DNA of 24,998 bases from a virus, in the IMG/VR virus record IMGVR_UViG_3300030329_005620, positions 1 to 24,998 of that record, one strand, 5' to 3'. The position numbers and the translations under genes are program-made. Shown piece by piece: positions 4,384 to 17,891 of this stretch. Numbering within the stretch: the first letter of the stretch is position 1; every line of letters starts with the position of its first letter. The notes beneath the pieces were generated by a model. That model was not told the DNA's origin, ran no database searches, and saw nothing but the letters and a program-made list of their open reading frames with translations.

Positions 4384-5610
4384 TTAAGCAGGAACCATTT
4401 CTGCTTTTGGTTTTGCATAACCCCTGACCATTTTAATTTCGTCTTGAGTTACAAATTCACCATGACCAATAGTATATGCGGCATGACCGAATTCAGCAAT
4501 GTCAATACCTTGTGTTTCTTCTTCAAGTGAAACTCGCAACCCTATTACCATTTTTATGATAAACCAAACTATCAAACTAGAAGCAAATACAAACCCCCCG
4601 ATAATTCCTATACCATAAAGTTGAGTAACTATGGATGCATCTTCTTTGAAGATTCCAACTGCAAGTGTTCCCCAAATTCCTGCAATAAGATGAACTGATA
4701 ACGCTCCAACTGGATCATCAATTTTCAGTTTATCAAACATTGGAATAGCGAGAACTGCTAAACTTGCACCGATGACTCCTATAATAAGTGACAAACCTAT
4801 TGATGGATAATCTGGACCTGCTGTAATTGAGACTAATCCAGCAAGTGCACCATTTAACACCAAAGTAAGATCTACTTTTTTGTATAGAAGTTGTGTTATA
4901 ATCATGGCAGTTACTGCACCTGCGGCGGCCGCCATATTTGTGTTTAATATTACACTAGCAATAGCATTAACATCATCTTTAGTTCCCATTGCTAGTTGAG
5001 ATCCACCATTGAATCCAAACCAACCAAACCAAAGAATAAATGTGCCCAATGTTGCTAATGGTAAATTAGATGGTGGAATAAGATTTACTTTTCCATCATC
5101 AGTATATTTACCGGTTCTTGCACCTAAAAGAATAACTCCCGCAAGCGCTGCCCATCCACCAACGGAATGAACAATTGTTGAACCAGCAAAATCAGAGAAT
5201 CCCATCTCAGATAGAAATCCTCCGCCCCACGTCCACGCACCTTGTAGTGGATAGATAACACTAGCAAGTACAAGGACAAAAAGCATGAACGACCAAAATT
5301 TCATTCGTTCTGCTATTGTTCCAGAAATGATGCTTGCTGCAGTTGCAACAAACACCACTTGGAAAAAGAAATCTGACATACCAGAATGATCTCCGTCCGA
5401 GATACTTCCGTACATCAATTGATAACCTATTGCAAAAAAGGCCAGGCAGGACAATGAATACAAACAAATATTCTTTGTCAGAATAGCAGTTGCATTTTTT
5501 GTTCTAACCATTCCTGCTTCTAACATTGAAAAGCCTGCCGCCATCAACATTACCAGCGCACCGCTGAAAAGAAGTAGAAAGGTATTCAAGATATATTGTG
5601 TTTCATTCAT
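4384..5610 (-). CDS. amt: Ammonium transporter (Amt/MEP/Rh family)
   Basis: Inner-membrane channel importing ammonium. The 408 residues and about 11 hydrophobic helices match bacterial AmtB. The family signature is present near residue 145 (DFAGSTIVHSVGG), including the first pore His, and the second pore His occurs in SVHLIAGIWGTLAVGIF. The C-terminal cytoplasmic tail (LEEETQGIDIAEFGHAAY) has the conserved pattern contacted by PII/GlnK proteins, so host nitrogen signalling could still gate it. The SD aaggag precedes the ATG. There is no obvious truncation and all key residues are intact, so it should be functional. It is an auxiliary metabolic gene most likely taken from a marine alphaproteobacterial host, for supplying nitrogen during infection. 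It neighbours a phosphate-transporter gene. Confidence 0.96.
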   Translation of the reverse strand: MNETQYILNTFLLLFSGALVMLMAAGFSMLEAGMVRTKNATAILTKNICLYSLSCLAFFAIGYQLMYGSISDGDHSGMSDFFFQVVFVATAASIISGTIAERMKFWSFMLFVLVLASVIYPLQGAWTWGGGFLSEMGFSDFAGSTIVHSVGGWAALAGVILLGARTGKYTDDGKVNLIPPSNLPLATLGTFILWFGWFGFNGGSQLAMGTKDDVNAIASVILNTNMAAAAGAVTAMIITQLLYKKVDLTLVLNGALAGLVSITAGPDYPSIGLSLIIGVIGASLAVLAIPMFDKLKIDDPVGALSVHLIAGIWGTLAVGIFKEDASIVTQLYGIGIIGGFVFASSLIVWFIIKMVIGLRVSLEEETQGIDIAEFGHAAYTIGHGEFVTQDEIKMVRGYAKPKAEMVPA

Positions 5611-5630
5611 AAAATTCTCCTTTCATTATG

Positions 5631-5658
5631 TATATATTATAATCACTTTTTACGTCAA
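5631..5658 (-). promoter_or_regulatory. Possible amt promoter
   Basis: TTGACG (5658-5653), 16 bp, then TATATA (5636-5631), 20 bases before the amt ATG. A better TATAAT hexamer overlaps (5641-5636) but has the wrong spacing to that -35. Confidence 0.45.
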
Positions 5659-5685
5659 TTTTTAATCAATTGATATTATTATTGA

Positions 5686-6123
5686 TTAAAATTTAGACAT
5701 AAATTTGGAGATTTGGTGAACAAATGGTAATAAAAGAACTGCCATAAACATATTGACGCCCGTATGTACTATAGCAATTTGTCTGGTAATTCCCGTTGGC
5801 ATACCATCTGAAACAAGAAGTCCAGCTAACCAAATAGTACCAGTAGTTCCTATATTTGCTCCTAGAACTGCTGCAATTGCCGCAGGAAGTGGAAGTGCAC
5901 CACCAGCAACTAAACCAATAATTGCAGTAGTAGATAATGATGAAGATTGCCACAATAGAGTCATAACAATACCACCAACAAACATATAGATAGGATTACC
6001 TAAAAACCATTGTAGATGGTCAATATTTCCCATGGCTTTCATGCCACCAGAGAACATTTTAAGACCAATATAAAAAATCACCAAACCAAGTAAGGTTTGG
6101 ATTACTGGATTATTCAATTCCAT
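5686..6123 (-). CDS. Na+/phosphate cotransporter family protein, single repeat
   Basis: PNaS (NptA/Na-Pi cotransporter) family. The two diagnostic elements are present: the QSSS motif in TLLWQSSSLSTTAIIGLV, and GANIGTTGT about 30 residues later. About four hydrophobic segments are visible. Full-length bacterial homologues contain two inverted copies of this unit and are at least twice as long. This 145-residue form has one copy and would have to dimerise, or be a derived half-transporter. I chose the ATG at 6123 because it has a spaced AAGAAGG SD and because the probable promoter would start RNA at about 6167. An ATG at 6168 would add 15 basic residues. It lies next to amt, suggesting paired N and P acquisition. 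Confidence 0.85.
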   Translation of the reverse strand: MELNNPVIQTLLGLVIFYIGLKMFSGGMKAMGNIDHLQWFLGNPIYMFVGGIVMTLLWQSSSLSTTAIIGLVAGGALPLPAAIAAVLGANIGTTGTIWLAGLLVSDGMPTGITRQIAIVHTGVNMFMAVLLLPFVHQISKFMSKF

Positions 6124-6173
6124 AGTCTGGACCTTCTTGATGAGTTTTGCTTTTTTACTTACTTTCATACAAC

Positions 6174-6202
6174 TATATATGAAAATTAATATTAGAAAAC
6201 AA
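6174..6202 (-). promoter_or_regulatory. Probable sigma-70 promoter of the Na/Pi gene
   Basis: TTGTTT (6202-6197), 17 bp, TATATA (6179-6174) on the minus strand. Confidence 0.5.
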
Positions 6203-6219
6203 TTAGAAGAATAATAATT

Positions 6220-6471
6220 TTATATTGGAAGTTTTGAAGTCTTTGGAAAGAAGTTTAAAGACTCAGCATCATTTCTCAAATTTTCTTTATTTTCAGCACT
6301 AATCAAACCTTTGACAGTTTCTGCTTCTAATCCATTTTGATCACAATAATGCAATATTGCATCAATATAATTCATTGATGATGTACTAACTAGTTGATTT
6401 ATTTCATTATTAAATTTATTTCTATCATTCAAATTGAGCATAGCTTTAGTTTTTTTGGTAGGTTTAGTCAT
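6220..6471 (-). CDS. 33: gp33-like late transcription coactivator
   Basis: 83 residues. The core (INQLVSTSSMNYIDAILHYCDQNGLEAETVKGLIS, then LRNDAESLNFFPK) aligns by eye with the T4 gp33 core, in which MxYxxAxxxxxEENxIxxxxxxxFI precedes an IxxxAxxxNLL pattern. T4 gp33 links the gp45 clamp to RNA polymerase through the beta flap, so that gp55 can initiate at TATAAATA boxes. Such boxes occur in this window at 3879, 9377, 13504 and 19597. The extreme C-terminus (KTSKLPI) lacks the acidic, hydrophobic clamp-binding end of T4, so clamp contact may differ. It has its own sigma-70 promoter. The assignment is from remembered family pattern and context. Confidence 0.72.
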   Translation of the reverse strand: MTKPTKKTKAMLNLNDRNKFNNEINQLVSTSSMNYIDAILHYCDQNGLEAETVKGLISAENKENLRNDAESLNFFPKTSKLPI

Positions 6472-6493
6472 TCAAAATTTCAGTTTAGGTTAT

Positions 6494-6522
6494 ATAATAA
6501 CAAATATATTATTAAATGTCAA
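6494..6522 (-). promoter_or_regulatory. Sigma-70 promoter of the gp33-like gene
   Basis: TTGACA (6522-6517), exactly 17 bp, TATTAT (6499-6494). It overlaps the stop codon of the upstream iscU-like gene. Confidence 0.75.
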
Positions 6523-6902
6523 GTATTATTTTGTTTATTTTTATAGTCACTTATTGCTGCTTTAATTGCGTCCTCTGCTAAAACAGAACAGTGTATTTTG
6601 ACGGGTGGTAAAGATAATTCTTCGACTATTTCTACATTAGAAAGTTCCATTGCTTCATCTATAGATTTGTCTTTAACCCATTCGGTTGCGAGAGAACTTG
6701 CTGCTATAGCACTCCCACAACCAAAAGTTTTGAATTTGGCATCAACTATTTTATCACCATCAACTTGAATTTGTAGTTTCATTACATCACCGCACTCAGG
6801 CGCTCCCACAAGACCAGTACCAATGTTATTATCAGTGGAATTAAAACTACCCACATTTCGGGGTTTTTCATAGTGATCTATTACCTTATCTGAATATGCC
6901 AT
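6519..6902 (-). CDS. iscU: IscU/NifU-type Fe-S cluster scaffold
   Basis: 127 residues, the length of bacterial IscU. All ligand residues are present: Cys in GAPECGDVM, Cys in FGCGSAIAASS, and His-Cys in KIHCS. The Asp after the first Cys (D39 equivalent) is kept. The chaperone-recognition motif LPPVK precedes the last ligand pair. The protein assembles [2Fe-2S] clusters from IscS sulfur and passes them on with the HscA/HscB chaperones, so it would plug into the host Isc system. It starts where the upstream membrane-protein gene ends and is followed by the gp33-like gene. It is a host-derived auxiliary gene that could sustain Fe-S enzymes during infection. Confidence 0.95.
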   Translation of the reverse strand: MAYSDKVIDHYEKPRNVGSFNSTDNNIGTGLVGAPECGDVMKLQIQVDGDKIVDAKFKTFGCGSAIAASSLATEWVKDKSIDEAMELSNVEIVEELSLPPVKIHCSVLAEDAIKAAISDYKNKQNNT

Positions 6903-8294: not shown

Positions 8295-9011
8295 CTATTT
8301 ATGTGAATTGTGGACGTATATGGCGTCCATTCTACCTTGCCAATGTTTTTTATAATTCATCACATTCATCTGTCTCTCAGAAACCCCACCATGAGCGGTT
8401 TCAACAATTATTACTGGTTTACATCTCTCAAGTGTTTCCTTTGCTCCTACTAGAGCTTGGTATTCAAATCCCTCTATATCTAACTGAATTAAATCACAAA
8501 TTTGTAAATTTAAACTATCTATCTTTGTTGTTTTTTCAGAACCACTTTCATTTAAATTAATTCTGTGTGCTCCATGATTCTGAAATTGACCATAATGTTG
8601 TCTGGATTTATCTAAAGTCCATCCCTTGTCTTCATGTTCACCCAAAGCTTTTTTAAAGAATGTAATTTTGTTATTTACATCATATTTTTTTATATTCTTT
8701 TCTGAAACATATCTGTTCATCAATGACGGTTCAAATGTATATATTGTATCAAAGTATTGTGTATATAATATTGGCCAAACACCCATTCCTGCTCCTGCTT
8801 GTACAAGAACACGTTTCATTTTAACAGGATCTAACCAATCGAGATGTTCATTTTTAAAATCTTCAATATTATCAAACAATCCTTCTTCACCAATTGGCCA
8901 TGTCATCTTTTCTATGTTAGCATAATTAATATCTCTAGTGTAAAGTTTTGATTCTATTCTATCAATAAAATCATCAGTATAACAATGAAAAGTATCACTA
9001 TATTGTGCCAT
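8295..9011 (-). CDS. FkbM-family SAM-dependent methyltransferase
   Basis: 238 residues. The SAM-binding loop is RVLVQAGAGMGVWPILY, the acidic strand end is YTFEPS, and the later family signature is LIQLDIEGFEYQALVGAKETLERCKPVIIVE. These are the standard motif I, motif II and DIEGxE elements of FkbM methyltransferases, which O-methylate sugars or small metabolites. In phages such genes often modify surface glycans or virion sugars, but the substrate is not visible here. It lies immediately downstream of the tmRNA and upstream of the Cys-rich peptide. The same 12-nt sequence occurs at each end of the gene (9027-9038 and 8306-8317). Confidence 0.9.
   Translation of the reverse strand: MAQYSDTFHCYTDDFIDRIESKLYTRDINYANIEKMTWPIGEEGLFDNIEDFKNEHLDWLDPVKMKRVLVQAGAGMGVWPILYTQYFDTIYTFEPSLMNRYVSEKNIKKYDVNNKITFFKKALGEHEDKGWTLDKSRQHYGQFQNHGAHRINLNESGSEKTTKIDSLNLQICDLIQLDIEGFEYQALVGAKETLERCKPVIIVETAHGGVSERQMNVMNYKKHWQGRMDAIYVHNSHK
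8306..8317. repeat. 12-nt direct repeat flanking the FkbM gene, copy 1
   Basis: AATTGTGGACGT, identical to 9027-9038. This copy lies inside a hairpin TGGACG-TATATGG-CGTCCA at the 3' end of the coding region. Confidence 0.6.
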
Positions 9012-9026
9012 AATATCCTTGATTTA

Positions 9027-9038
9027 AATTGTGGACGT
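9027..9038. repeat. 12-nt direct repeat flanking the FkbM gene, copy 2
   Basis: AATTGTGGACGT, identical to 8306-8317. This copy forms one arm of the terminal hairpin of the tmRNA coding piece. Confidence 0.6.
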
Positions 9039-9205
9039 TTCTGTTTCAAGGTACGCCCAAACCCATCAACTTATGCGGCCATGGCCATAGAAGCTGAAGT
9101 ATAATCGTTATTATTTGCGATTAAGTTTAATGCACATTCACGGTAGTCGCTCACCGGATACCTAATATCCAACTTCACAATCAATCGAGTACCTTTACAT
9201 CCCCA

Positions 9206-9298
9206 TCAAGAAACAAGAATAATTTCTAAGATGTAATAAAAACCAATTATAATTCCAAGAATCAACACCCACAACATGATAATTCCCATGTCATCCAT
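9206..9298 (-). CDS. 30-residue membrane microprotein inside the tmRNA intervening segment
   Basis: The ORF starts at ATG 9298 with AAGGAG (9309-9304) five bases upstream. The first A of that SD is the last base of the tmRNA CCA. It encodes MDDMGIIMLWVLILGIIIGF followed by YYILEIILVS and TGA (ends 9206), two bases before the tmRNA 5' half. It fills the excised segment almost exactly. The peptide is one long hydrophobic helix with an acidic N-terminus, like the other microproteins in this window. Translation would need the precursor, or a separate transcript, before processing. Confidence 0.6.
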   Translation of the reverse strand: MDDMGIIMLWVLILGIIIGFYYILEIILVS

Positions 9299-9359
9299 TC
9301 GTGCTCCTTGGTGGAGATGGCCGGAATCGAACCGGCGTCTTAATTGCTATCTGAATACA

Positions 9360-10019
9360 TCAGACAGTATCATAATTATTTATAACTTCTTTCAATCTCT
9401 CAATATTTTCATCAGGATAGGCAAAAAATACTTGGGGATCACTATTAATAACTGCTATTACAATTACTACTTGTGATATTTTAATTCCTGTTCTTTCTTC
9501 ATACATTTTAGCATAAGCAGTACCTTGTAGCTTATAACTCTCAATCCATTCTTCACGTTTGGGTTTTGATGATGTTTTCCAATCTATAATAGAAAGTTCA
9601 TCATCATACTCTGCTATACAATCACATTGTCCCGCTACTCCCAACTCTTTAGACCATAAAGAAACTTCAAGTCCATATATATTACCAATATGAATATCTA
9701 AAATAGATTGAACTGACTTAAACAATTCAATATTATCTGGAAAATGTCCGCTTAAATAATCTTGCTTATTTTGCAGATAGTCTTCGATAATCTTATGCGT
9801 TTTTGTTCCTCTTCGTGAAGCTTGTGTAGAGATTTTATTTGCTTCTGCTTCTCCAACCCTGTTTCTCCACTCCTGTATAGAAGCTTTGGACAAAGATGAA
9901 AGAACTGTAGTGATGCTTGGGAAATTTCCATCTGGTGTTTCGTATAATCTTTTTCCTGAAATGTTTTTTCTTGTTATATCACCAATTATTTCAAGAGATT
10001 CATGATTAAAAGTTTTCAA
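9360..10019 (-). CDS. RecB/Cas4-like PD-(D/E)XK exonuclease
   Basis: 219 residues. The nuclease signature is visible in order: GTKTHKIIEDYL (motif with conserved His), GVAGQCDCIAEYDDELSIIDWKTSS (the D...D-x-K core), and LQGTAYAKMYEERTG (QxxxY motif). These are the marks of the RecB nuclease/Cas4 superfamily, and stand-alone versions occur in T4-like marine phages. It probably trims or resects DNA in phage recombination or host-DNA degradation. The start overlaps the stop of the FmdB-type gene by 4 bases. Its stop codon lies within the first hairpin of the tmRNA precursor, and the tmRNA promoter is within its last codons. Confidence 0.88.
   Translation of the reverse strand: MKTFNHESLEIIGDITRKNISGKRLYETPDGNFPSITTVLSSLSKASIQEWRNRVGEAEANKISTQASRRGTKTHKIIEDYLQNKQDYLSGHFPDNIELFKSVQSILDIHIGNIYGLEVSLWSKELGVAGQCDCIAEYDDELSIIDWKTSSKPKREEWIESYKLQGTAYAKMYEERTGIKISQVVIVIAVINSDPQVFFAYPDENIERLKEVINNYDTV
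9377..9384 (-). promoter_or_regulatory. T4-type late promoter for the tmRNA
   Basis: Exact TATAAATA on the minus strand within the last codons of the RecB-like gene. The predicted start at about 9371 is within a few bases of the first hairpin of the tmRNA precursor. Confidence 0.75.
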
Positions 10020-10276
10020 AATGTATTAATGTCACCTAGTTTAGTACTACGGTGCTTCCTTTTAATTTCTTTTAAGTGATCTCTAAATGCGGGGTCTGGT
10101 TTTCTCAAACCCAATCTAATTGGATCTGCTACTCCTGGAAAAACTAATTTCATTTTTATTAATCCTTCTCCACATTTACCACAAATTTTTCCTACTGGTA
10201 AATTTCTATCTGCGATGAGATGAAATTCTTCAAATTCATTATCACAGGTATCACATTGATAATCATAATTTGGCAT
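10016..10276 (-). CDS. FmdB-type zinc ribbon protein
   Basis: 86 residues. It starts MPNYDYQCDTCDNEFEEF, the canonical FmdB/CxxC-CxxC putative regulatory domain with paired Cys (QCDTC and ICGKCG), followed by a charged tail. Family members are small zinc ribbons of uncertain role. It overlaps clpS by one base upstream and the nuclease by four downstream, so it is part of one operon. Confidence 0.85.
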   Translation of the reverse strand: MPNYDYQCDTCDNEFEEFHLIADRNLPVGKICGKCGEGLIKMKLVFPGVADPIRLGLRKPDPAFRDHLKEIKRKHRSTKLGDINTF

Positions 10277-10572
10277 TATGTCTCCCTTAAATTTACTTGT
10301 AAAGGATAGTCAAGTTCTTTAGCTTCCAACATAACTTCATATGCTTTTTGTTCCGCTACTTGAAATGGATAAACACCTGCTATACCTTCTCCTTTTGTAT
10401 GAACATTCATCATTATTTTTTCTGCTTCTGTTTTTGTTTTACTAAAATAATACATTAAAGCATAAGTAACGAATTCCATTGGAGTATAGTCATCATTTTT
10501 AAAAAGGACAAAATAATTCCTTGGTGGTTTTACTTTGTCCTTTACTCTTTTTTTATCTACTACTTGATTCAT
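10276..10572 (-). CDS. clpS: ClpS adaptor
   Basis: 98 residues. The ClpS core is clear: YFVLFKNDDYTPMEFV with the N-degron pocket NDD, then AEKIMMNVHTKGEGIAGVYP and VAEQKAYEVMLEAKELDYPL. In bacteria it binds the ClpA N-domain, delivers N-end-rule substrates and blocks ClpAP from degrading ssrA-tagged proteins. A phage copy would bias host Clp proteolysis. It shares this operon with a tmRNA, whose tag products are Clp substrates. The start overlaps the preceding gene by four bases. Confidence 0.94.
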   Translation of the reverse strand: MNQVVDKKRVKDKVKPPRNYFVLFKNDDYTPMEFVTYALMYYFSKTKTEAEKIMMNVHTKGEGIAGVYPFQVAEQKAYEVMLEAKELDYPLQVNLRET

Positions 10573-10967
10573 CGATCAAATGGCCTACCATCAAAGAATG
10601 TTCTTAAACTAGTGAATGGTTTGTAATTTTTGGTAACTTCATCTTTATTAGTCACCATCCACTCACCATTTATATATGTGTAGATAAATTCCACACCATT
10701 TTCTTCGCCATATTCAAGAAGATCAAAATAATCTGAAACAGTACTTTTTGATTCATCATAAACTTCAATATCATACTCACTTGGCCATAAAGACCTTGCT
10801 GCTCCTTTTGTTGTTAGTTTTTCAACTTTTCCATCTTCATCATAATAGTGATAAAGATTATATCCTGTATATTCAATATCTCCATTATATTCTGTTGTAC
10901 AGAAATTAAAACCATTTTCTGTTTCACTAGCAATGATAGTATTCATCATAATATTAACCTTGTCCAT
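10569..10967 (-). CDS. Hypothetical protein, 132 aa
   Basis: Acidic, Tyr-rich soluble protein (NGDIEYTGYNLYHYYDEDGK, then EFIYTYINGEWMVTNKD). The repeated aromatic beta-strand-like segments suggest an all-beta fold. The start overlaps the end of guaC by 14 bases. A second pair of Met codons at residues 7-8 is an alternative start. No family recognised. Confidence 0.75.
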   Translation of the reverse strand: MDKVNIMMNTIIASETENGFNFCTTEYNGDIEYTGYNLYHYYDEDGKVEKLTTKGAARSLWPSEYDIEVYDESKSTVSDYFDLLEYGEENGVEFIYTYINGEWMVTNKDEVTKNYKPFTSLRTFFDGRPFDR

Positions 10968-11946
10968 AAACGTTATTTAATTGACGATTAACTCTTACAA
11001 AAGTAGTACACTTTGGTAAGTCTTTTAAGGTTTTAGCACCCGCATAAGTACAAGCGCTTCTTAACCCCCCTAAAATTTCTTCTATGGTTTTTTTAACTGG
11101 TCCTTTGTAGCGAACATAAACAACTTTTCCTTCACTCGCTCTGTAGTCCTTTTTATCACCATAATATTCTTTTTGTGCTTCTTCTGAAGACATTCCATAA
11201 AATTTCATAACAGATGGTCCTTCTTCTAGATCTTCAGTATCACCCAAACATTCATCATGACCCGCCAACATACCACCGAGCATCACAAAGTCTGCACCAG
11301 CCCCAAAGCTCTTTGCTAAGTCTCCCGCTACGGTACAGCCTCCGTCTGTGATGATATGACCGCCTAGCCCGTGTGCCGCATCCGCACACTCTATAGTTGC
11401 GCTCAATTGTGGATACCCGACTCCTGTCATTTTTCTTGTTGTGCATACGCTTCCTGGTCCTATTCCGATTTTAACAATATCTGCACCCGCAAGAATAATC
11501 TGTTCTGTCGCCTCAGGGGTACATACGTTTCCTGCTATAATAATAGAATCATCAAACACATCACTATTTCTTAACATAGAAACATAATCACTAAATCTTT
11601 CTGTATAACCATTTGCTACATCCAAACAAATCCATTTAGAAGGTTTTAAATTTTTAATATCTTCATCTAAACCTATTGTTTGAATTAAATTATCCTTTTC
11701 TTCAAACGGCACAAATTTACATAATGCGGTCAACATGGCGTGCTTAGACAAAGCTGATCTCATATCATAAGTTCCTGTATGATCCATATTGGCAGCAATA
11801 ATTGGTATACCTTCCCAAGTATGACTAGAATATTTAAATTTAAATACTCTTGCTAACCACGCATATTTTCTTGAAACTAAAGTAGATCTTTTTGGTTTAA
11901 TTAAAACATCTGAAAAATCTAATTTAACATCTTCTTCTATTCTCAT
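10954..11946 (-). CDS. guaC: GMP reductase
   Basis: 330 residues. It begins MRIEEDVKLDFSDVLIKPKR, almost the same as E. coli GuaC. The catalytic Cys lies in the loop GPGSVCTTRKMTGVGYPQ. Phosphate-binding and IMPDH/GMPR features appear in IITDGGCTVAGDLAKSFGAG and FVMLGGMLAGHDE. No CBS domains are present, as expected for GMP reductase rather than IMPDH. It converts GMP to IMP with NADPH, recycling guanine nucleotides toward adenine ones, which suits an AT-rich genome. The SD AAAGGA precedes the ATG. It heads the guaC-clpS-nuclease operon behind a 240-bp leader. Confidence 0.94.
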   Translation of the reverse strand: MRIEEDVKLDFSDVLIKPKRSTLVSRKYAWLARVFKFKYSSHTWEGIPIIAANMDHTGTYDMRSALSKHAMLTALCKFVPFEEKDNLIQTIGLDEDIKNLKPSKWICLDVANGYTERFSDYVSMLRNSDVFDDSIIIAGNVCTPEATEQIILAGADIVKIGIGPGSVCTTRKMTGVGYPQLSATIECADAAHGLGGHIITDGGCTVAGDLAKSFGAGADFVMLGGMLAGHDECLGDTEDLEEGPSVMKFYGMSSEEAQKEYYGDKKDYRASEGKVVYVRYKGPVKKTIEEILGGLRSACTYAGAKTLKDLPKCTTFVRVNRQLNNVYGQG

Positions 11947-12784: not shown

Positions 12785-12858
12785 TGGAGCGGATAGAAGG
12801 AATTGCACCCTCATCTTAACTTTGGTAAAGTTATGTTCTACTTTTGAACTATATCCGC
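12785..12858 (-). tRNA. tRNA-Gly with anticodon ACC (unusual)
   Basis: Acceptor GCGGATA/TATCCGC, D-arm GTTC-AAAAGTA-GAAC, anticodon arm TAACT-TTACCAA-AGTTA, T-arm GAGGG-TGCAATT-CCTTC, U73 and encoded CCA. G1-C72, C2-G71 and U73 fit glycine identity. A34 in the anticodon is very rare for bacterial glycine tRNAs. The T loop lacks the usual TTC (it has TGC), so the gene may be diverged. Confidence 0.75.
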
Positions 12859-12861
12859 TTA

Positions 12862-13037
12862 TGTGCCGGAAATGAACAGCCATACTAGTACAACTTATAT
12901 CTTGTCCTTAATTGAACCTAAGTTGTGGGTTTTGAGCGGTGACTAACTCCGCCGCCAGCAGTGTTCTGGGAATAGTCAATTCCAATCTGTCTTACTAAGC
13001 AACTGTTCACTTCCATTGTTTTTTTATTTCAAGTCAG
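12862..13037 (-). ncRNA. Candidate structured RNA upstream of tRNA-Gly
   Basis: This stretch has no convincing gene but is covered by a strong promoter. On the minus strand, GTGAACAG (13010-13003) can close with CTGTTCAT (12879-12872), one pair being G-U. Inside are GGAAT-TGACT-ATTCC (12983-12969), GCGG...CCGC (about 12955-12936) and an 8-bp stem ACAACTTA/TAAGTTGT (12926-12919 with 12897-12890). The multibranched fold does not match tRNA or any RNA class I know. Confidence 0.5.
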
Positions 13038-13045
13038 TTAAATAT

Positions 13046-13074
13046 ATAGTACCATGAAAAATATCAATTGTCAA
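13046..13074 (-). promoter_or_regulatory. Sigma-70 promoter for the structured RNA/tRNA-Gly transcript
   Basis: TTGACA (13074-13069), exactly 17 bp, TACTAT (13051-13046), preceded by the A-rich tract AAAAAAAC shared with the early promoters of this phage. Confidence 0.75.
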
Positions 13075-13080
13075 GTTTTT

Positions 13081-13485
13081 TTAATTGTTATTTTCATCTA
13101 TATTTCTCCACTCACTAGCAATCTTTGCTTTATCATCTTCAAGGTCATTAAATGTTCCTACAGGAATTCTTTGGCCTTCTTTTTTTCCACTTCTAGATAA
13201 AAATACTCTGCGAATTAATTTTGTTATTGCATTTTTACATTCCCAACAAATCTCTTGTGGTTTCTCACCAACATTTTTAGGCAAAACCATTTCACATTCA
13301 GAATGTAAATAATTTAATTTTTCATCATCAAAGTAAAGATTTGGTTGAATACTTTGAACAGGATAGTCTTCATTAATACCATAATCATCTCTGTAAATCC
13401 ATTTGTCATAAGTTCCCTTACAACAATAACAAATACAATTAGTATTTTTATCATAACTATCTTTATCGTATCTAATTCTACCCAA
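13081..13485 (-). CDS. Cys-rich zinc-finger-like hypothetical protein, 134 aa
   Basis: The start is TTG (13485) with AAGGA five bases before it. Paired cysteines occur in NCICYCCKGTYD, a HSEC, and CWECKNAI, arranged like a split zinc finger with two or three CxxC-type half sites and a His. This resembles small HNH or zinc-binding phage proteins, but no HNH catalytic core is visible. It overlaps the endonuclease VII-like gene by eight bases and also has a late promoter. Confidence 0.7.
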   Translation of the reverse strand: MGRIRYDKDSYDKNTNCICYCCKGTYDKWIYRDDYGINEDYPVQSIQPNLYFDDEKLNYLHSECEMVLPKNVGEKPQEICWECKNAITKLIRRVFLSRSGKKEGQRIPVGTFNDLEDDKAKIASEWRNIDENNN

Positions 13486-13975
13486 TGATTTCCTTTTTTA
13501 AATTATTTATATTTAAGTATTCTATTGCTGAATATAATATATTAGTATCATCTTTAGCATGACCAATAATTGTATTACATGAAGCACATAATAAACCTCT
13601 TACTACGCTTGTTTGGTGACAATGATCAATATATATTTCTGATCTCCATTTTTTAACACTACCCTTAAATGTAGGATCTCTACCAACTGGAGCCCAATAT
13701 TTCTTCATCACCTTATTACATATTTTACATTTACCTTTTTGTGATGAATACATTTCATTCCATTGTTCTTCAGATATTCCATATTTTGTTTTTATTCGCC
13801 ACCATTTCATTTTATCTCTATTTTTTATAGTCCACTTTGCTCTTGATTTTTTTTGTGAAGGATGATTTCTACTATTTGTACAAGATCCGCCTTTGTATCT
13901 TAAAGTGGTTCCACATATTTTACATGGATTACCTTCAAAAGTTACTGTATCTTTTTTAAATTTTATTTCTTTCAT
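13478..13975 (-). CDS. Endonuclease VII-family HNH nuclease
   Basis: 165 residues from ATG 13975. A longer in-frame start would run into tRNA-Pro and is rejected. The C-terminal half has the endonuclease VII pattern: YGISEEQWNEMYSSQKGKC with CxxC (CKICN), then IYIDHCHQTSVVRGLLCASCNTIIGHAKDD, the DHCH catalytic and second zinc pair. The N-terminus carries another CKIC zinc pair. In T4, gp49 endonuclease VII resolves Holliday junctions. Shorter relatives like this are often mobile homing-type nucleases. It lies beside a three-tRNA cluster, a usual place for such elements. Resolvase versus homing role cannot be decided. Confidence 0.88.
   Translation of the reverse strand: MKEIKFKKDTVTFEGNPCKICGTTLRYKGGSCTNSRNHPSQKKSRAKWTIKNRDKMKWWRIKTKYGISEEQWNEMYSSQKGKCKICNKVMKKYWAPVGRDPTFKGSVKKWRSEIYIDHCHQTSVVRGLLCASCNTIIGHAKDDTNILYSAIEYLNINNLKKEIIG
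13504..13511 (-). promoter_or_regulatory. T4-type late promoter TATAAATA
   Basis: Exact box within the last codons of the endonuclease gene, 18 bases before the TTG start of the Cys-rich gene. Predicted start about 13498. Confidence 0.6.
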
Positions 13976-13989
13976 AATTATTTTTCTGG

Positions 13990-14063
13990 TCGGCGTGGCA
14001 GGATTTGAACCTGCAACCACATGGACCCAAACCATGCATTCTACCAGATTGAACTACACGCCG
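13990..14063 (-). tRNA. tRNA-Pro (UGG)
   Basis: Acceptor CGGCGTG/CACGCCG, D-arm beginning AGTTC, anticodon arm CATGG-TTTGGGT-CCATG giving UGG, T-arm with GGTTCAAATCC. A73; CCA is not encoded. First of three tightly packed tRNAs. Confidence 0.95.
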
Positions 14064-14066
14064 ATT

Positions 14067-14142
14067 TGGTGGAGCTGACAAGAATCGAACTTGCTACCTC
14101 TTCCGTGCAAGGGAAGCGCTCTCCCAGATGAGCTACAGCCCC
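14067..14142 (-). tRNA. tRNA-Ala (UGC)
   Basis: Acceptor GGGGCTG/CAGCTCC with the G3-U70 identity pair, anticodon arm CTTCC-CTTGCAC-GGAAG giving UGC, T-arm GTTCGATTC, encoded CCA. Confidence 0.95.
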
Positions 14143-14143
14143 A

Positions 14144-14218
14144 TGGCAGACGTAGTAGGATTCGAACCCACACTAACTGGTTTGGAATCAGTGGTGCTAC
14201 CGTTAACACTATACGCCT
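14144..14218 (-). tRNA. tRNA-Trp (CCA)
   Basis: Acceptor AGGCGTA/TACGTCT (one G-U), D-arm GTGT/GCAC, anticodon loop TTCCAAA giving CCA, G73 as expected for Trp, encoded CCA. The anticodon stem has one A-C mismatch at its loop end. The 5' end overlaps the stop codon of the upstream small gene by two bases. Confidence 0.9.
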
Positions 14219-14384
14219 ATACGTGAGGTTCAGTATGACCATGAAGATCTTCAATTTTCATATTGTCAGTATGACATTTATTATGTTGAATTTTCTTCTT
14301 TGGCCAGATCAAAGCATATGCCATTGTGGTCAGTGATATAACTGCAACAATGATCATAGCAATAAACATCATCATGAATATCAT
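14217..14384 (-). CDS. Small membrane protein, 55 aa
   Basis: The start at ATG 14384 forms an ATGA overlap with the stop of the preceding 41-residue gene, so the longer in-frame reading from 14450 is not used. One strongly hydrophobic span (MIFMMMFIAMIIVAVISLTT) is followed by a His/Lys-rich cytoplasmic-type tail (KKKIQHNKCHTDNMK, then HGHTEPHV). The His/Cys-rich end could bind metal. Not recognised. Confidence 0.65.
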   Translation of the reverse strand: MIFMMMFIAMIIVAVISLTTMAYALIWPKKKIQHNKCHTDNMKIEDLHGHTEPHV

Positions 14385-14506
14385 TTTTTTGGTCCATATA
14401 AAGATTGAGTTACACCAATTAAAAATATTACAGATACTATAATTCCGCAACCAAAAATGATTGCGGAGTTTGGATCATTAAAAAAATCAATCAGTCCCAT
14501 CTTCAT
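14381..14506 (-). CDS. Membrane microprotein, 41 aa
   Basis: ATG 14506 lies inside the end of the preceding 66-residue gene (20-base overlap), and its TGA forms the ATGA start of the next gene. The sequence is a short amphipathic start MKMGLIDFFNDPNS, a single hydrophobic helix (AIIFGCGIIVSVIFLIGV), and the tail TQSLYGPKK. Not recognised. Confidence 0.6.
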   Translation of the reverse strand: MKMGLIDFFNDPNSAIIFGCGIIVSVIFLIGVTQSLYGPKK

Positions 14507-14687
14507 CTTGTCCTGTTTCAATTACTCTGAATGCTCCCAAAATAGAAGGAACCCAAAGTCCAACATAGATACCATAAAGTTTAGCATCTGGACTGTCCAT
14601 AAAGAAAAACAAGTAAATTGACAACGCAAGAGATAGAACTGTTGCGAATAAAACATATTGATGAGATTTTTTCATCTTTCCTTTCAT
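14487..14687 (-). CDS. Two-span membrane protein, 66 aa
   Basis: Two hydrophobic helices (YVLFATVLSLALSIYLFFF and LYGIYVGLWVPSILGAF) separated by a short polar turn, with a charged C-tail ending GQDEDGTD. The start at 14687 is an ATGA overlap with the Prx stop. A second ATG four codons later has a better-spaced AAAGGA. Function unknown. Confidence 0.7.
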   Translation of the reverse strand: MKGKMKKSHQYVLFATVLSLALSIYLFFFMDSPDAKLYGIYVGLWVPSILGAFRVIETGQDEDGTD

Positions 14688-15169
14688 AATGAATTCAATA
14701 AATTTTCGGGTTTAGTAATGTCATAAGGATCATCATCTAAACCCATTTGATTAATACCATCTTCACGCCACAATTTTTCAACTTCCATATCATTAATCAC
14801 CATAGCGTAACGCCAACTACGATAACCAAAGTTTTGTGCCGGTTTCCAAACCAACATATTCATATCCCTTGTAAATTCACCACTACCATCAGGGATCATT
14901 TTAACATTTTCAATTTCGTGTTTCTCAGCCCATGCATTCATTACAAATGAATCATTTACTGACATACAATAGACTTCATCAATACCTTTTGCTTTGAAGT
15001 CATCATAAAGAGCATCCAGACCTGGAAGCTGTAGTTCGCTTCATATAGGTGTAAATGCACCAGGCAAAGAAACAACCAAAGATCTTTTACCAGCAAAATA
15101 CTGATGTGCTGTTTCTATGAACCAATCAGAACCTTTTCTGATTTTCCAATTAGTGTTAGGCACTTTCAT
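14684..15169 (-). CDS. Peroxiredoxin (Prx5 type) with in-frame UGA at the catalytic position; probable selenoprotein
   Basis: Read through the UGA at codon 43 (15043-15041), the frame gives 161 residues, the usual Prx5 length. The active-site motif reads LPGAFTPI-U-SELQLPG, where family members have PGAFTPTCS, so UGA replaces exactly the peroxidatic Cys. Downstream family marks are intact: VYCMSVNDSFVMNAW, DGSGEFTRDMNM and FGYRSWRYAMVINDMEV, with the active-site Arg. A SECIS-like hairpin follows the UGA. Other genes here stop at UGA (iscU, FkbM neighbours), so a code change is unlikely. A pseudogene from Cys to UGA mutation is the alternative, but the hairpin and the intact downstream frame argue for selenocysteine. 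The start overlaps the end of glutaredoxin, its likely reductant. Confidence 0.85.
15011..15030 (-). promoter_or_regulatory. Bacterial-type SECIS hairpin after the Prx UGA
   Basis: The minus strand reads AGCTTCC-AGGTCT-GGATGCT: stem AGC/GCT, one U-U mismatch, U-A and CC/GG, with apical loop AGGUCU. The loop begins 17 nt after the UGA. As I recall E. coli fdhF, its SECIS has the same AGGUCU loop at the same distance, with an unpaired U in the stem for SelB. Confidence 0.8.
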
Positions 15170-15416
15170 CATTCTCCTTTTCATAGTGTTTAACTAAGTC
15201 TTGATAATTACCAATGAATTCACCATCAATAATTATTTGTGGTACCTGAGTTGATTTAGTTTCCTTCATCAACTTACCAAAGAATTTCTTATCAGAATTA
15301 ATAACAGTATATTTAATACCCTTTTCATCAAGAAACTCTTTTGATTTATCACACCATTCACAATCAGGAACAGATTGGTGACGTATGATAACATTTCCAT
15401 TTAATTCTAAATTCAT
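15156..15416 (-). CDS. grx: Glutaredoxin
   Basis: 86 residues. The active site is dithiol CEWC in VPDCEWCDKSKEFLDEKGI. The cis-Pro loop is TQVPQIIIDGEFIGNY, with the conserved GxxIGxxxD-like glutathione site. The fold and length match bacterial Grx. It reduces disulfides with glutathione and would recycle the adjacent Prx5-type enzyme; in some bacteria Prx5 and Grx are one fused protein. AAGGA lies before the ATG, just after tRNA-Asn. The end overlaps the Prx start by 14 bases. Confidence 0.94.
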   Translation of the reverse strand: MNLELNGNVIIRHQSVPDCEWCDKSKEFLDEKGIKYTVINSDKKFFGKLMKETKSTQVPQIIIDGEFIGNYQDLVKHYEKENDESA

Positions 15417-15432
15417 TTAATTCCTTTCCAAG

Positions 15433-15507
15433 TGGCTCCTCGGGCTGGATTCGAACCAACGACAAGCAGATTAACAGTCTACCGTTCTACCACTGAACTA
15501 CCGAGGA
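15433..15507 (-). tRNA. tRNA-Asn (GUU)
   Basis: Acceptor TCCTCGG/CCGAGGA, anticodon arm GTAGA-CTGTTAA-TCTGC giving GUU, T-arm GGTTCGAATCC, G73 and encoded CCA. Confidence 0.95.
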
Positions 15508-15510
15508 ACA

Positions 15511-15586
15511 TGGAGCTGACGATAGGATTTGAACCTACGACCTGAAGTTTACAAAACTCCTGCTCTACCAACTGAGCTACGTCAGC
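15511..15586 (-). tRNA. tRNA-Thr (UGU)
   Basis: Acceptor GCTGACG/CGTCAGC, D-arm GCTCAGTTGGTAGAGC, anticodon arm GGAGT-TTTGTAA-ACTTC giving UGU, T-arm GGTTCAAATCC, encoded CCA. Confidence 0.95.
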
Positions 15587-15591
15587 TTGTT

Positions 15592-15677
15592 TGGTGGGCA
15601 GGGTTGGATTCGAACCAACTCATCCTAAAGAGCCAGATTTACAGTCTGGTGTGCCTCACCATCTGCACCGCCTACCC
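15592..15677 (-). tRNA. tRNA-Tyr (GUA)
   Basis: Acceptor GGGTAGG/CCTGCCC, anticodon arm CCAGA-CTGTAAA-TCTGG giving GUA, a long class II variable arm, T-arm GGTTCGAATCC, A73 and encoded CCA. The 5' end overlaps the stop of the upstream metallopeptidase gene by six bases. Confidence 0.95.
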
Positions 15678-16196
15678 ATTATTTGATATTGATTTTTGAA
15701 ATTCTTTAAAAAACAATTCAAACATAACCATTAAACCTTCTTCTCTACCAAACGCTTCTATTTCCCATTCAAAATCATAATAATCTAACCAATTCATGTC
15801 ATCATTAAAAGCAAAACCAGTTGGCTGACCTTTCCAAACCATTCCAACTTTTTGATATGAAAGTTCACCAAGTATATATTGTTTTGCATGCACGAGTTCA
15901 TGAGCTAATGTTCTCAAAAAATTATATTCATCATCTAACAACAAAGAATTGATATATATCTTGATTTTATTTTTATTTACTTTTGATGGTGGAAGTTCTT
16001 CAATACCAACTGGAAAAGTTGCACCATGCTCATTTTCTGCCATTCTTTTCAAATGTAAATCAATATCAACTGCTTTGTATGTTCTTCCACTTTTTACAAA
16101 ACGATTAATTACAAAATGGCACAATAAAGAACACTTCAATTTAAAGTCTTTAATGTGCGATAGTTTATTTCTACCTGTATAAATTCCAACTTGCAT
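15672..16196 (-). CDS. SprT-like zinc metallopeptidase (HExxH)
   Basis: 174 residues. The zinc motif HELVH sits in FLRTLAHELVHAKQYILGEL, and a likely third ligand Glu in FEWEIEAFGREEGL follows about 50 residues later. A positively charged N-terminal segment precedes it. The pattern resembles phage SprT-like or small minigluzincin peptidases, and the target is unknown. No strong SD; an A/T-rich leader precedes ATG 16196. The end overlaps tRNA-Tyr. Confidence 0.75.
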   Translation of the reverse strand: MQVGIYTGRNKLSHIKDFKLKCSLLCHFVINRFVKSGRTYKAVDIDLHLKRMAENEHGATFPVGIEELPPSKVNKNKIKIYINSLLLDDEYNFLRTLAHELVHAKQYILGELSYQKVGMVWKGQPTGFAFNDDMNWLDYYDFEWEIEAFGREEGLMVMFELFFKEFQKSISNNG

Positions 16197-16212
16197 ATTT
16201 TTATTTAGGAAG

Positions 16213-16255
16213 GGGTCGGAGATGCGAGAGAGATTGAGAGAAACATCCCCGACCC
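16213..16255 (-). terminator. Long GC-rich hairpin between early and middle regions
   Basis: On the minus strand GGGTCGG (16255-16249), a mismatch and GATG pair with CATC (16224-16221) and CCGACCC (16219-16213): 11 pairs with one mismatch over a 19-base pyrimidine-rich loop. It lies just after the 171-residue gene. The following U tract is weak, so it may be a factor-dependent terminator or an mRNA-stabilising hairpin. Confidence 0.55.
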
Positions 16256-16266
16256 GGGGAAAGTCT

Positions 16267-16782
16267 TTAATTCACTGCCGCATCAACAACATAATTTGTT
16301 GCCCACTCTCTCAACTCGGATGCATGCTCCGCATAGTTCCCTTCAATGCGATCTGCCGTTTCAAGTGCATCTCGCAAAACTGCATCAACTAATATATCAA
16401 AGTCTGACCAACTATTTGAAAAACCTCCATCTTCAGAAGTTCCCCAACCGCTCATGGAAGCGTATGTCCATTCATCAGTATCAACATCATAGATGTAAAC
16501 AAATTCCCAATCTGAATGAACCATATCATCTCTCATTTCATCAGAATTTGCCCAGACCCAAGGATCTTCAGAATTCGCTGAATTGGCTCTGGATTCTTCC
16601 AGGTCTGAACTCAGTGATGAATAATATCCACCATCAACGACGCGTCTTGCGTCTTCTGCTGAATTGAACTCATTGACCAAAAGAAGACCAACACCAGTAA
16701 GGTATCCATCATAATGAACATAGGCCGCTCTGATTTCTTCTGAACCAATTTCTCTTACACCAACAACTGATCTAGTTCCCAT
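16267..16782 (-). CDS. Conserved phage protein (MGTRSVVGV type), 171 aa
   Basis: The start MGTRSVVGVREIGSEE, with YVHYDGYLTGVGLLLVNEF soon after, is a pattern I associate with a small uncharacterised family common in phages (GTRS...HWDGY...VG). The rest is very acidic, rich in Ser, Asp and Trp, and ends in an alanine-rich helix. Early gene; no function assigned. Confidence 0.8.
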   Translation of the reverse strand: MGTRSVVGVREIGSEEIRAAYVHYDGYLTGVGLLLVNEFNSAEDARRVVDGGYYSSLSSDLEESRANSANSEDPWVWANSDEMRDDMVHSDWEFVYIYDVDTDEWTYASMSGWGTSEDGGFSNSWSDFDILVDAVLRDALETADRIEGNYAEHASELREWATNYVVDAAVN

Positions 16783-16826
16783 AGTATTCTCTCAATTAGG
16801 GTTATTTCTCATTCTCAACAGGTTAT

Positions 16827-16855
16827 AGTATACACGAAACTTGAGTCAATGTCAA
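16827..16855 (-). promoter_or_regulatory. Early sigma-70 promoter
   Basis: AAAAAAACTTGACA with -35 at 16855-16850, 17 bp, TATACT (16832-16827). The initial transcribed region, ending GTTGAGAATGAGAAAT, is related to the promoters at 22763 and 24055. It drives the 171-residue gene. Confidence 0.85.
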
Positions 16856-16861
16856 GTTTTT

Positions 16862-16936
16862 TTACAAAAAATCTGGAGCAATCAATCCTGCAAGCATGAT
16901 CACTTGGCTCCATAAAATCAAATCAATTCCAATCAT
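16862..16936 (-). CDS. Membrane microprotein, 24 aa
   Basis: ATG 16936 forms an ATGA overlap with the stop of the 86-residue gene before it. Hydrophobic throughout (MIGIDLILWSQVIMLAGLIA), ending PDFL, and stopping just before the next promoter. No family recognised. Confidence 0.5.
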   Translation of the reverse strand: MIGIDLILWSQVIMLAGLIAPDFL

Positions 16937-17193
16937 CGTGATTCTCTGTTCCAGCTGGACTCAACACCACGCATCTTGAGATGAATAGTGATGCCAAAAC
17001 CAGACTCATTAGCAAGAAGTACAGGTTGACCATGACCATCGTCAACCACGTTACAATCAGCAAGATCAATAAAGAGATCTTTGCGAGTGGTATGACGGAA
17101 AAAAGAATGTCTATCTTTGACAATCCAGTTCTCATCAAAACCACCACGGTAGACACCAACTTCAGTGCCCTTGTCAATAAAAAAACCTTTCAT
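16933..17193 (-). CDS. Hypothetical early protein, 86 aa
   Basis: MKGFFIDKGTEVGVYRGGFD, then beta-strand-rich segments (VLLANESGFGITIHLKMRGV). The frame overlaps the upstream gene by one base (TAATG), so translation is probably coupled. A competing frame over the same bases starts later and is less plausible. Unrecognised. Confidence 0.7.
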   Translation of the reverse strand: MKGFFIDKGTEVGVYRGGFDENWIVKDRHSFFRHTTRKDLFIDLADCNVVDDGHGQPVLLANESGFGITIHLKMRGVESSWNRESR

Positions 17194-17444
17194 TAGATAT
17201 CCTCTACAATTACAAAGTCGTGCAGATTCTCAGCTCCACCCGCAATAGTGAAGAGCCGACTGCAACGATCAGACAATGGACGATCCAAAACCAACTCAAT
17301 ACCACCGCCAAATGTCAGACGGGTGCTCAAGATCTTACGACGATCTGCAAACCCAAGTCTTCCGACTTTCACACAAAGAATCTTGCCCGCACTGTCAAGT
17401 GCTTCGTTCATCTTGTTTTTTATCCACATATCAACTGCTGTCAT
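17193..17444 (-). CDS. Hypothetical early protein, 83 aa
   Basis: MTAVDMWIKNKMNEALDSAG, then a basic segment (VGRLGFADRRKILSTRL) and a Gly/Leu-rich strand region. The leader AGAGAGATTTGAT before the ATG recurs before other early genes. First gene after the early promoter at 17484. Unrecognised. Confidence 0.7.
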   Translation of the reverse strand: MTAVDMWIKNKMNEALDSAGKILCVKVGRLGFADRRKILSTRLTFGGGIELVLDRPLSDRCSRLFTIAGGAENLHDFVIVEDI

Positions 17445-17468
17445 ATCAAATCTCTCTTAAAGGTTAAT

Positions 17469-17498
17469 CTCAACTACAGGTGTAGTATAACACAGGTC
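17469..17498 (-). repeat. 30-nt early-promoter repeat, copy 1
   Basis: Thirty bases covering the -10 and the initial transcribed region, identical to 22000-22029 and 24861-24890. It contains the palindrome CTACAGGTGTAG and a GTGT/ACAC dyad centred on the -10. Confidence 0.9.
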
Positions 17499-17513
17499 AT
17501 ATGCCAATGTCAA
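17484..17513 (-). promoter_or_regulatory. Early sigma-70 promoter with operator-like dyad
   Basis: TTGACA (17513-17508), 18 bp, TATACT (17489-17484), in the A-tract/TTGAC context shared by all early promoters here. Confidence 0.85.
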
Positions 17514-17754
17514 GTTTTTTGAGTATTTCAAAATCATTATCTGTAGGTTGATCAATCCAACGTCCATCATGAATCCATTTATTGTCACCAGATCCACCAG
17601 TGTTGAACGTCTTGTTTTTTGATCTCAAAGCGACGCCGTCTCTTGGGCCGTCAGTTGCGACCACTTCCCAGACATCACCATGCTGATCAATTCTGTTTTT
17701 ACCATGACGGGACGTTCCTTTAAGAAGTACCCAATCTCCAACTATTAAATTCAT
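17497..17754 (-). CDS. Hypothetical early protein, 85 aa
   Basis: I start at ATG 17754, which has AAAGGA five bases upstream; the in-frame start at 17790 would lie in the promoter region. MNLIVGDWVLLKGTSRHGKN begins an SH3/KOW-like small beta protein (GDVWEVVATDGPRDGVALRS). KOW-like identity is only a resemblance. Confidence 0.7.
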   Translation of the reverse strand: MNLIVGDWVLLKGTSRHGKNRIDQHGDVWEVVATDGPRDGVALRSKNKTFNTGGSGDNKWIHDGRWIDQPTDNDFEILKKLDIGI

Positions 17755-17780
17755 ATTTCCTTTCTCATTGTTACAGGACC

Positions 17781-17809
17781 AGGATAACACAATCAGGCAC
17801 AGAAGTCAA
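17781..17809 (-). promoter_or_regulatory. Early sigma-70 promoter
   Basis: TTGACT (17809-17804), 17 bp, TATCCT (17786-17781). It begins seven bases after the CCA of tRNA-Cys and drives the 85-residue gene. Confidence 0.8.
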
Positions 17810-17815
17810 GTTTTT

Positions 17816-17891
17816 TGGAGTTGCCGACAGGGATCGAACCTGCGTAGAACAGTTTTGCAGACTGTCGCCTAACCAACTCAGCCACGGCAAC
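17816..17891 (-). tRNA. tRNA-Cys (GCA)
   Basis: Acceptor GTTGCCG/CGGCAAC, anticodon arm ACAGT-CTGCAAA-ACTGT giving GCA, U73 typical of Cys, T-arm GGTTCGATCCC, encoded CCA. It stands alone between a hypothetical gene and an early promoter. Confidence 0.95.

Follow-up and report, generated by a model that had tools for sequence, protein, structure and literature searches.

The window, by which we mean the whole stretch of DNA analysed, is a virus record of 24,998 bases from a marine phage that is identified as T4-like by its gp32-like single-stranded DNA-binding protein, which has matches to Kyanoviridae and other T4-like phages. On its minus strand, at positions 9371-9071, lies a circularly permuted (two-piece) tmRNA gene, which matches the Rfam model tmRNA_permuted over its full length (RF04321, 110.3 bits, E 4.9e-21; gathering cut-off 47 bits), also exceeds the cut-off of alpha_tmRNA (RF01849, 61.7 bits; gathering 50) and is called as a permuted tmRNA by ARAGORN ('tmRNA*', 8980-9401 (-), fixed flanks included). 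The acceptor half (9309-9371 (-)) comprises a leading hairpin, the T-arm and the acceptor strand CATCTCC-ACCA, with the last A of the CCA at 9309, and the coding half (9071-9204 (-)) extends from its acceptor strand, GGGGATG, through the tag frame; both were delimited by the RF04321 alignment, ARAGORN and the sequence itself. Together they form an acceptor stem of seven pairs (G1-C72, G2-C71, G3-U70, G4-C69, A5-U68, U6-A67, G7-C66), so that the alanine identity pair G3-U70 and an encoded CCA are both present. The tag frame (9118-9071 (-), stop included; ARAGORN and sequence), which opens with the resume codon GCA after CTTAATC, encodes ANNNDYTSASMAMAA with a small hydrophobic end. The original prediction had claimed a permuted tmRNA, carried by the phage and equipped with a tag of its own, the pairing of its two halves over seven bases including G3-U70, and the tag frame behind TTAATC-GCA; all of these hold in the sequence and under the Rfam covariance models and the permuted ARAGORN call that it had named as their check.

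Directly upstream of the tmRNA is a gene for a PD-(D/E)XK nuclease (9360-10019 (-); Pfam PF12705, 29.3 bits), whose end overlaps the RNA start and a promoter-like box, TATAAATA (9384-9377 (-)), that occurs four times on the minus strand of the window and never on the other. This box resembles the late promoters of T4, the consensus of which is named in the accessible text of PMC9004378, and stands at the predicted -10 position of such a promoter. The reading of it as a late-promoter element, already made in the original prediction, gains from its positional enrichment: of 199 distinct stretches upstream of viral permuted tmRNAs, 32 have TATAAAT between -70 and -25 relative to the acceptor half, as against 2/199 in a control interval of the same stretches (-290 to -245), the stretches being related to one another and hence not 199 independent events. 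Searches with the nuclease gave 267 relatives confirmed by tblastn, from which 80 loci were kept, and the same tmRNA was found in the loci of close relatives (L002, L003, L004 and L011); a direct DNA match to the window tmRNA was not found among phage records. Judged by its sequence, this is a genuine tmRNA of a known kind. Elsewhere on the minus strand the window carries metabolic genes (4384-6902 and 10954-11946) for an ammonium transporter, a Na/Pi-cotransporter-like protein, a NifU/IscU-like scaffold and an IMPDH/GMP reductase-like protein, as well as eight tRNA genes among small ORFs (12785-17891).

Between the CCA and the GGGG lies an intervening sequence of 104 nt (9205-9308 (-)) with a UGAU box at its end, which has to be taken out for the tmRNA to mature. 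An ORF for a protein of 30 residues with one hydrophobic stretch, MDDMGIIMLWVLILGIIIGFYYILEIILVS (9206-9298 (-)), fills this spacer: its ATG is at 9298, its UGA (9208-9206) ends one base ahead of the GGGG, and a Shine-Dalgarno sequence, AGGAG (9304-9308 (-)), begins with the first base after the CCA. While the tmRNA, the tag and the promoter-like box of the original prediction stand, it had overlooked the intervening segment as a protein-coding gene. ORFs at the same site in related phages encode 60 distinct proteins. To gauge their frequency we used a collection of 382 loci, assembled mostly by nuclease similarity, a T-arm pattern and two long-spacer patterns, in which ARAGORN called 256 permuted tmRNAs; their spacers comprise 193 distinct sequences, of which 143 measure 84-200 nt, the collection being enriched for long spacers. 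Defining a filling ORF as an ATG frame that starts at most 22 nt after the CCA and ends at most 15 nt before the spacer end, we found one in 40 of these 143 spacers, whereas dinucleotide shuffling (200 rounds) produced 5.0 on average and never more than 12, and the reverse complements gave none. A spacer-blind sample retrieved by tag pattern (93 stretches reduced to 53 distinct spacer/tag pairs, with 10 further tag matches that could not be delimited) had a filling frame of at least 20 aa in 32/53, those without one including spacers of 58 nt or 15-16 nt; in the T-arm-pattern sample alone, the figure was 5 of 56 distinct spacers. Since many viral spacers are thus without one, the spacer ORF is dispensable by this comparison.

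Among chromosomal (bacterial) permuted tmRNAs, a filling ORF of at least 15 aa was found in 0/57 (from 61 fetched loci), this control set consisting of 56 spacers that range from 5 to 116 nt, plus one ARAGORN miscall (L539). Two AT-rich small genomes had tmRNA spacers of 12-13 nt. A scan of a genome collection for long-spacer permuted tmRNAs gave 41 matches in scattered phyla, which we left out of the evidence. Several viral spacers depart from the window arrangement: those of L428 and L504 (366 and 229 nt) start with a hydrophilic frame of 50-odd aa (MSxFSDRLSILERLP...), L428 seemingly with more frames, and in L437, L446, L461, L486, L492 and L509 frames of the MIEKQKATIIN... type have no spacer stop and read on into the coding half. 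The 58-nt spacers related to the latter type resemble a 44-nt deletion of it.

The nested ORFs bear the marks of selection on protein. Among 99 distinct sequences of such ORFs we formed 34 disjoint pairs by DNA distance alone (2-16 differences); their 197 differences altered the amino acid in 90 codons and were silent in 91, as against 136.4 ± 6.0 changed codons expected under random substitution (minimum 118 in 1000 simulations). The +1 and +2 frames, with 144 and 163 changed codons, showed no depletion, so that purifying selection is confined to the ORF frame, and the differences were distributed over codon positions 1, 2 and 3 as 73, 15 and 109. An earlier test agrees (132 changed against 196.5 ± 6.8 expected), but its 45% protein-identity filter could favor conservation and it was superseded by the DNA-distance test; pooled dN/dS was 0.21-0.57 in eight groups of nested ORFs. 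Furthermore, a membrane-span-like stretch (17 residues with mean hydropathy of at least 1.6) is present in 53 of the 60 distinct spacer proteins, compared with 2/60 and 4/60 in the other frames. In a PHROGs profile search with 8 representative peptides of the 60, the window peptide had no match, the best E-values being 0.0048 for the 47-aa peptide of L136 and 0.032 for the family termed C below, both to families of unknown function. A tblastn search of phage records with two 30-aa peptides, family C and a 56-aa spacer peptide recovered nothing useful, a search in which the low-complexity filter may mask hydrophobic peptides.

These microproteins fall into unlike families that occupy one site, namely membrane families, a hydrophilic family of 53-56 aa and a charged one of 47 aa. 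Searches using the protein alone placed the window family within a tmRNA spacer, from the CCA to the coding half, at 13/13 loci, and its sister, the MEKK family, within such a spacer at 66/66 loci, of which 63 are clear and 3 lie at contig ends or have a changed acceptor. Family C is more varied in placement: among 30 loci, it is inside the spacer in 12 (L595-L599, L616-L620, L623 and L624), directly upstream of the acceptor half in at least nine (L601, L602, L603, L607, L608, L610, L611, L613 and L622) and followed by a tmRNA 307-859 nt downstream in three (L600, L605 and L606); five (L604, L612, L614, L615 and L621) have no tmRNA in the available flank, and L609 is cut off. A relative of family B lies immediately upstream of the tmRNA in L227. 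Family C, and judging by this one sequence probably family B, therefore exist outside the spacer as well. In L607 (about 2501-2790), inspection by eye found family C upstream of the tmRNA together with an unrelated hydrophobic frame of 23 aa in the spacer, and in L612 (after 2584) the family C frame stands just ahead of an IscU-like gene resembling that at 6519-6902 of the window.

The two ends of the 104-nt intervening sequence pair with each other and extend the acceptor stem, and this stem contains the ribosome-binding site, the start region and the last codons of the ORF; the window spacer piece has a folding z of -2.85. Across 67 spacers, 88.4% of cells are paired when the ten bases after the CCA are aligned in fixed register with the bases that precede the UGAU box, compared with 42-53% when the register is slid by 1-3 and 59.1 ± 1.7% when the 3' ends are swapped. 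In 16 divergent spacers the same register is 87.5% paired (swap control 55.2 ± 3.8%, maximum 70), and we conclude from these alignments that the stem covaries; within the MEKK family alone, stem variation is too small for the pairing test. The UGA stop lies one base ahead of the GGGG in 49/67 spacers, with the boundary set by ARAGORN or by pattern. Viral spacers without a filling ORF have a register pairing of 0.871 (n=134), with the UGAU end in 107/134, and bacterial spacers are paired too, if more weakly (0.723, n=42). The stem is therefore a feature of the tmRNA, likely an old part of its precursor, and the ORF likely took its ribosome-binding site from one strand of the stem, with the UGAU box supplying its stop. 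Because the ribosome-binding site is buried in the stem, translation may be weak.

Permuted tmRNAs of phages are in print, and the tmRNA of the window is therefore in itself ordinary. The accessible text of PMC9004378 describes two-piece tmRNAs in phages (53/133 distinct phage tmRNA structures) and includes the Methylophilales phage Melnitz and the Pelagibacter phages Mosig and HTVC008M (Kyanoviridae), T4-like and marine, with the permuted tmRNA likewise set between a nuclease gene and late-gene regulators; that text contains no description of a spacer ORF in two-piece tmRNA. All three records match RF04321, as does the window. Unlike the window, Mosig and HTVC008M have hairpin spacers of 44-49 nt without an ORF, and the 142-nt spacer of Melnitz holds an unannotated ORF (no CDS) that reads into the coding half and had no relative among the collected loci outside Melnitz. 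The HTVC008M permuted tmRNA (NC_020484, 145161-145370) is missing from the record annotation. The alphaproteobacterial two-piece tmRNA (RF01849) shares the gene order, the acceptor and T-arm, and an end-paired intervening sequence, but differs in the ORF-less spacers of its chromosomal representatives noted above; the distance of 75-125 bp between halves given for such genes in the accessible portion of PMC2704228 is longer than most of our chromosomal control sample. Genes in the removed part of a tmRNA have precedents in the sections of PMC11915505 available to us, which report one tRNA gene and one repeat inside intervening sequences of permuted tmRNAs, and homing endonuclease genes in group-I-intron tmRNAs. 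The occupants in those cases are a tRNA gene (once) or an intron endonuclease, whereas the window phages have recurrent membrane microproteins in the permuted spacer, and those sections do not mention a protein ORF there. A full-text literature search, returning titles and abstract openings and thus leaving room for a prior mention, gave no description of one either. What is new at this locus is accordingly the membrane microgene nested in the tmRNA spacer, the tmRNA being of a known kind.

On these comparisons of sequence, the window very probably carries a nested protein-coding gene within a real permuted tmRNA. Two further accounts, both compatible with it, bear on what ties the two genes together. 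One is that the removed segment is a niche for cargo, tolerating small selfish or accessory genes with no functional tie to ribosome rescue. The homing-endonuclease genes of tmRNA introns offer a parallel, unlike families occupy the same site, and family C may lie inside, beside or elsewhere, with L607 combining family C beside the tmRNA and another ORF inside. Yet the window and MEKK families were found exclusively inside spacers, and peptides with a single membrane span predominate among the occupants, a pattern that points to a role in common; we hold this account possible, though on balance doubtful. Slightly less likely still is a switch in the manner of a uORF, in which ribosomes translating the ORF would open up the stem and keep RNase P from cutting; free ribosomes would then delay maturation of the tmRNA, their scarcity would permit it, and the peptide itself may matter little. 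This would fit the stacking on the acceptor helix of a stem that holds the ribosome-binding site, the start region and the last codons, and the recurrent placement of the UGA one base before the GGGG. It sits poorly with the conservation of the amino-acid sequence and with the occurrence of family C away from any tmRNA seen, and the stem appears older than the ORF; the pairing, which we had considered as evidence of a regulatory switch, was downgraded once ORF-less spacers were seen to share it. That the locus is an ordinary phage permuted tmRNA, with a spacer ORF that arose by chance in an AT-rich stem-loop, is very improbable: hydrophobic frames do readily arise in AT-rich DNA, the spacer stem is general and many viral spacers have no ORF, but this is outweighed by the 40 filling ORFs against the 5 from shuffles, by purifying selection in a single frame, by membrane spans concentrated in that same frame and by the occurrence of family B and C homologues beyond the spacer, immediately upstream of a tmRNA.

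Under the preferred reading of a nested gene, a single late transcript would start near 9371 and carry both the tmRNA and the nested ORF. Before the precursor is cut, translation of the ORF by ribosomes would give a microprotein of the inner membrane; RNase P, which with tRNase Z is given as a likely processing enzyme of two-piece tmRNA in the accessible text of PMC3985003, would then cut before the GGGG, and trimming to the CCA would remove the ribosome-binding site, leaving the two-piece tmRNA in its mature form. From each precursor the microprotein would come first, or alone, and the rescue RNA after it, so that the best reading of the locus is of one transcript that may have two alternative outputs, a membrane microprotein or the matured tmRNA. 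It is conceivable, if rather unlikely, that ribosome loading on the nested ORF opens the extended acceptor stem, so that the microprotein is made while maturation waits, with RNase P and trimming otherwise eliminating the ribosome-binding site of the ORF and freeing the rescue RNA. As to the role of the microprotein, we rate as improbable our guess that it modulates, late in infection, a complex of the host inner membrane, such as an FtsH-type protease or the lysis or superinfection machinery.

The original prediction had proposed that the tag would mark products for a chosen protease or adaptor. A candidate partner in such proteolysis is the ClpS encoded within this gene run, two genes upstream (10276-10572 (-); Pfam PF02617, 92.8 bits). 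ClpS matches (E<=1e-6) are confined to the clades of the window and L005 (17 loci, whereas the nuclease has matches at 259), and the order ClpS-zinc ribbon-nuclease-tmRNA is preserved in those two clades alone. We therefore rejected ClpS as a general partner of the tmRNA; a partnership limited to these clades is possible.

The intervening sequence of the permuted tmRNA, so far regarded as waste, is recurrently protein-coding in phages, and annotation pipelines would miss a frame of 30 aa within an RNA gene. The locus appears to be a compact case of an RNA gene and a protein gene in one short transcript, in which removing the one would be the condition for the other. If the two-product precursor is true, the phage would couple the making of a membrane effector to how much ribosome rescue is needed, and the linked protein makes the question of what a phage-borne tmRNA is for a testable one.
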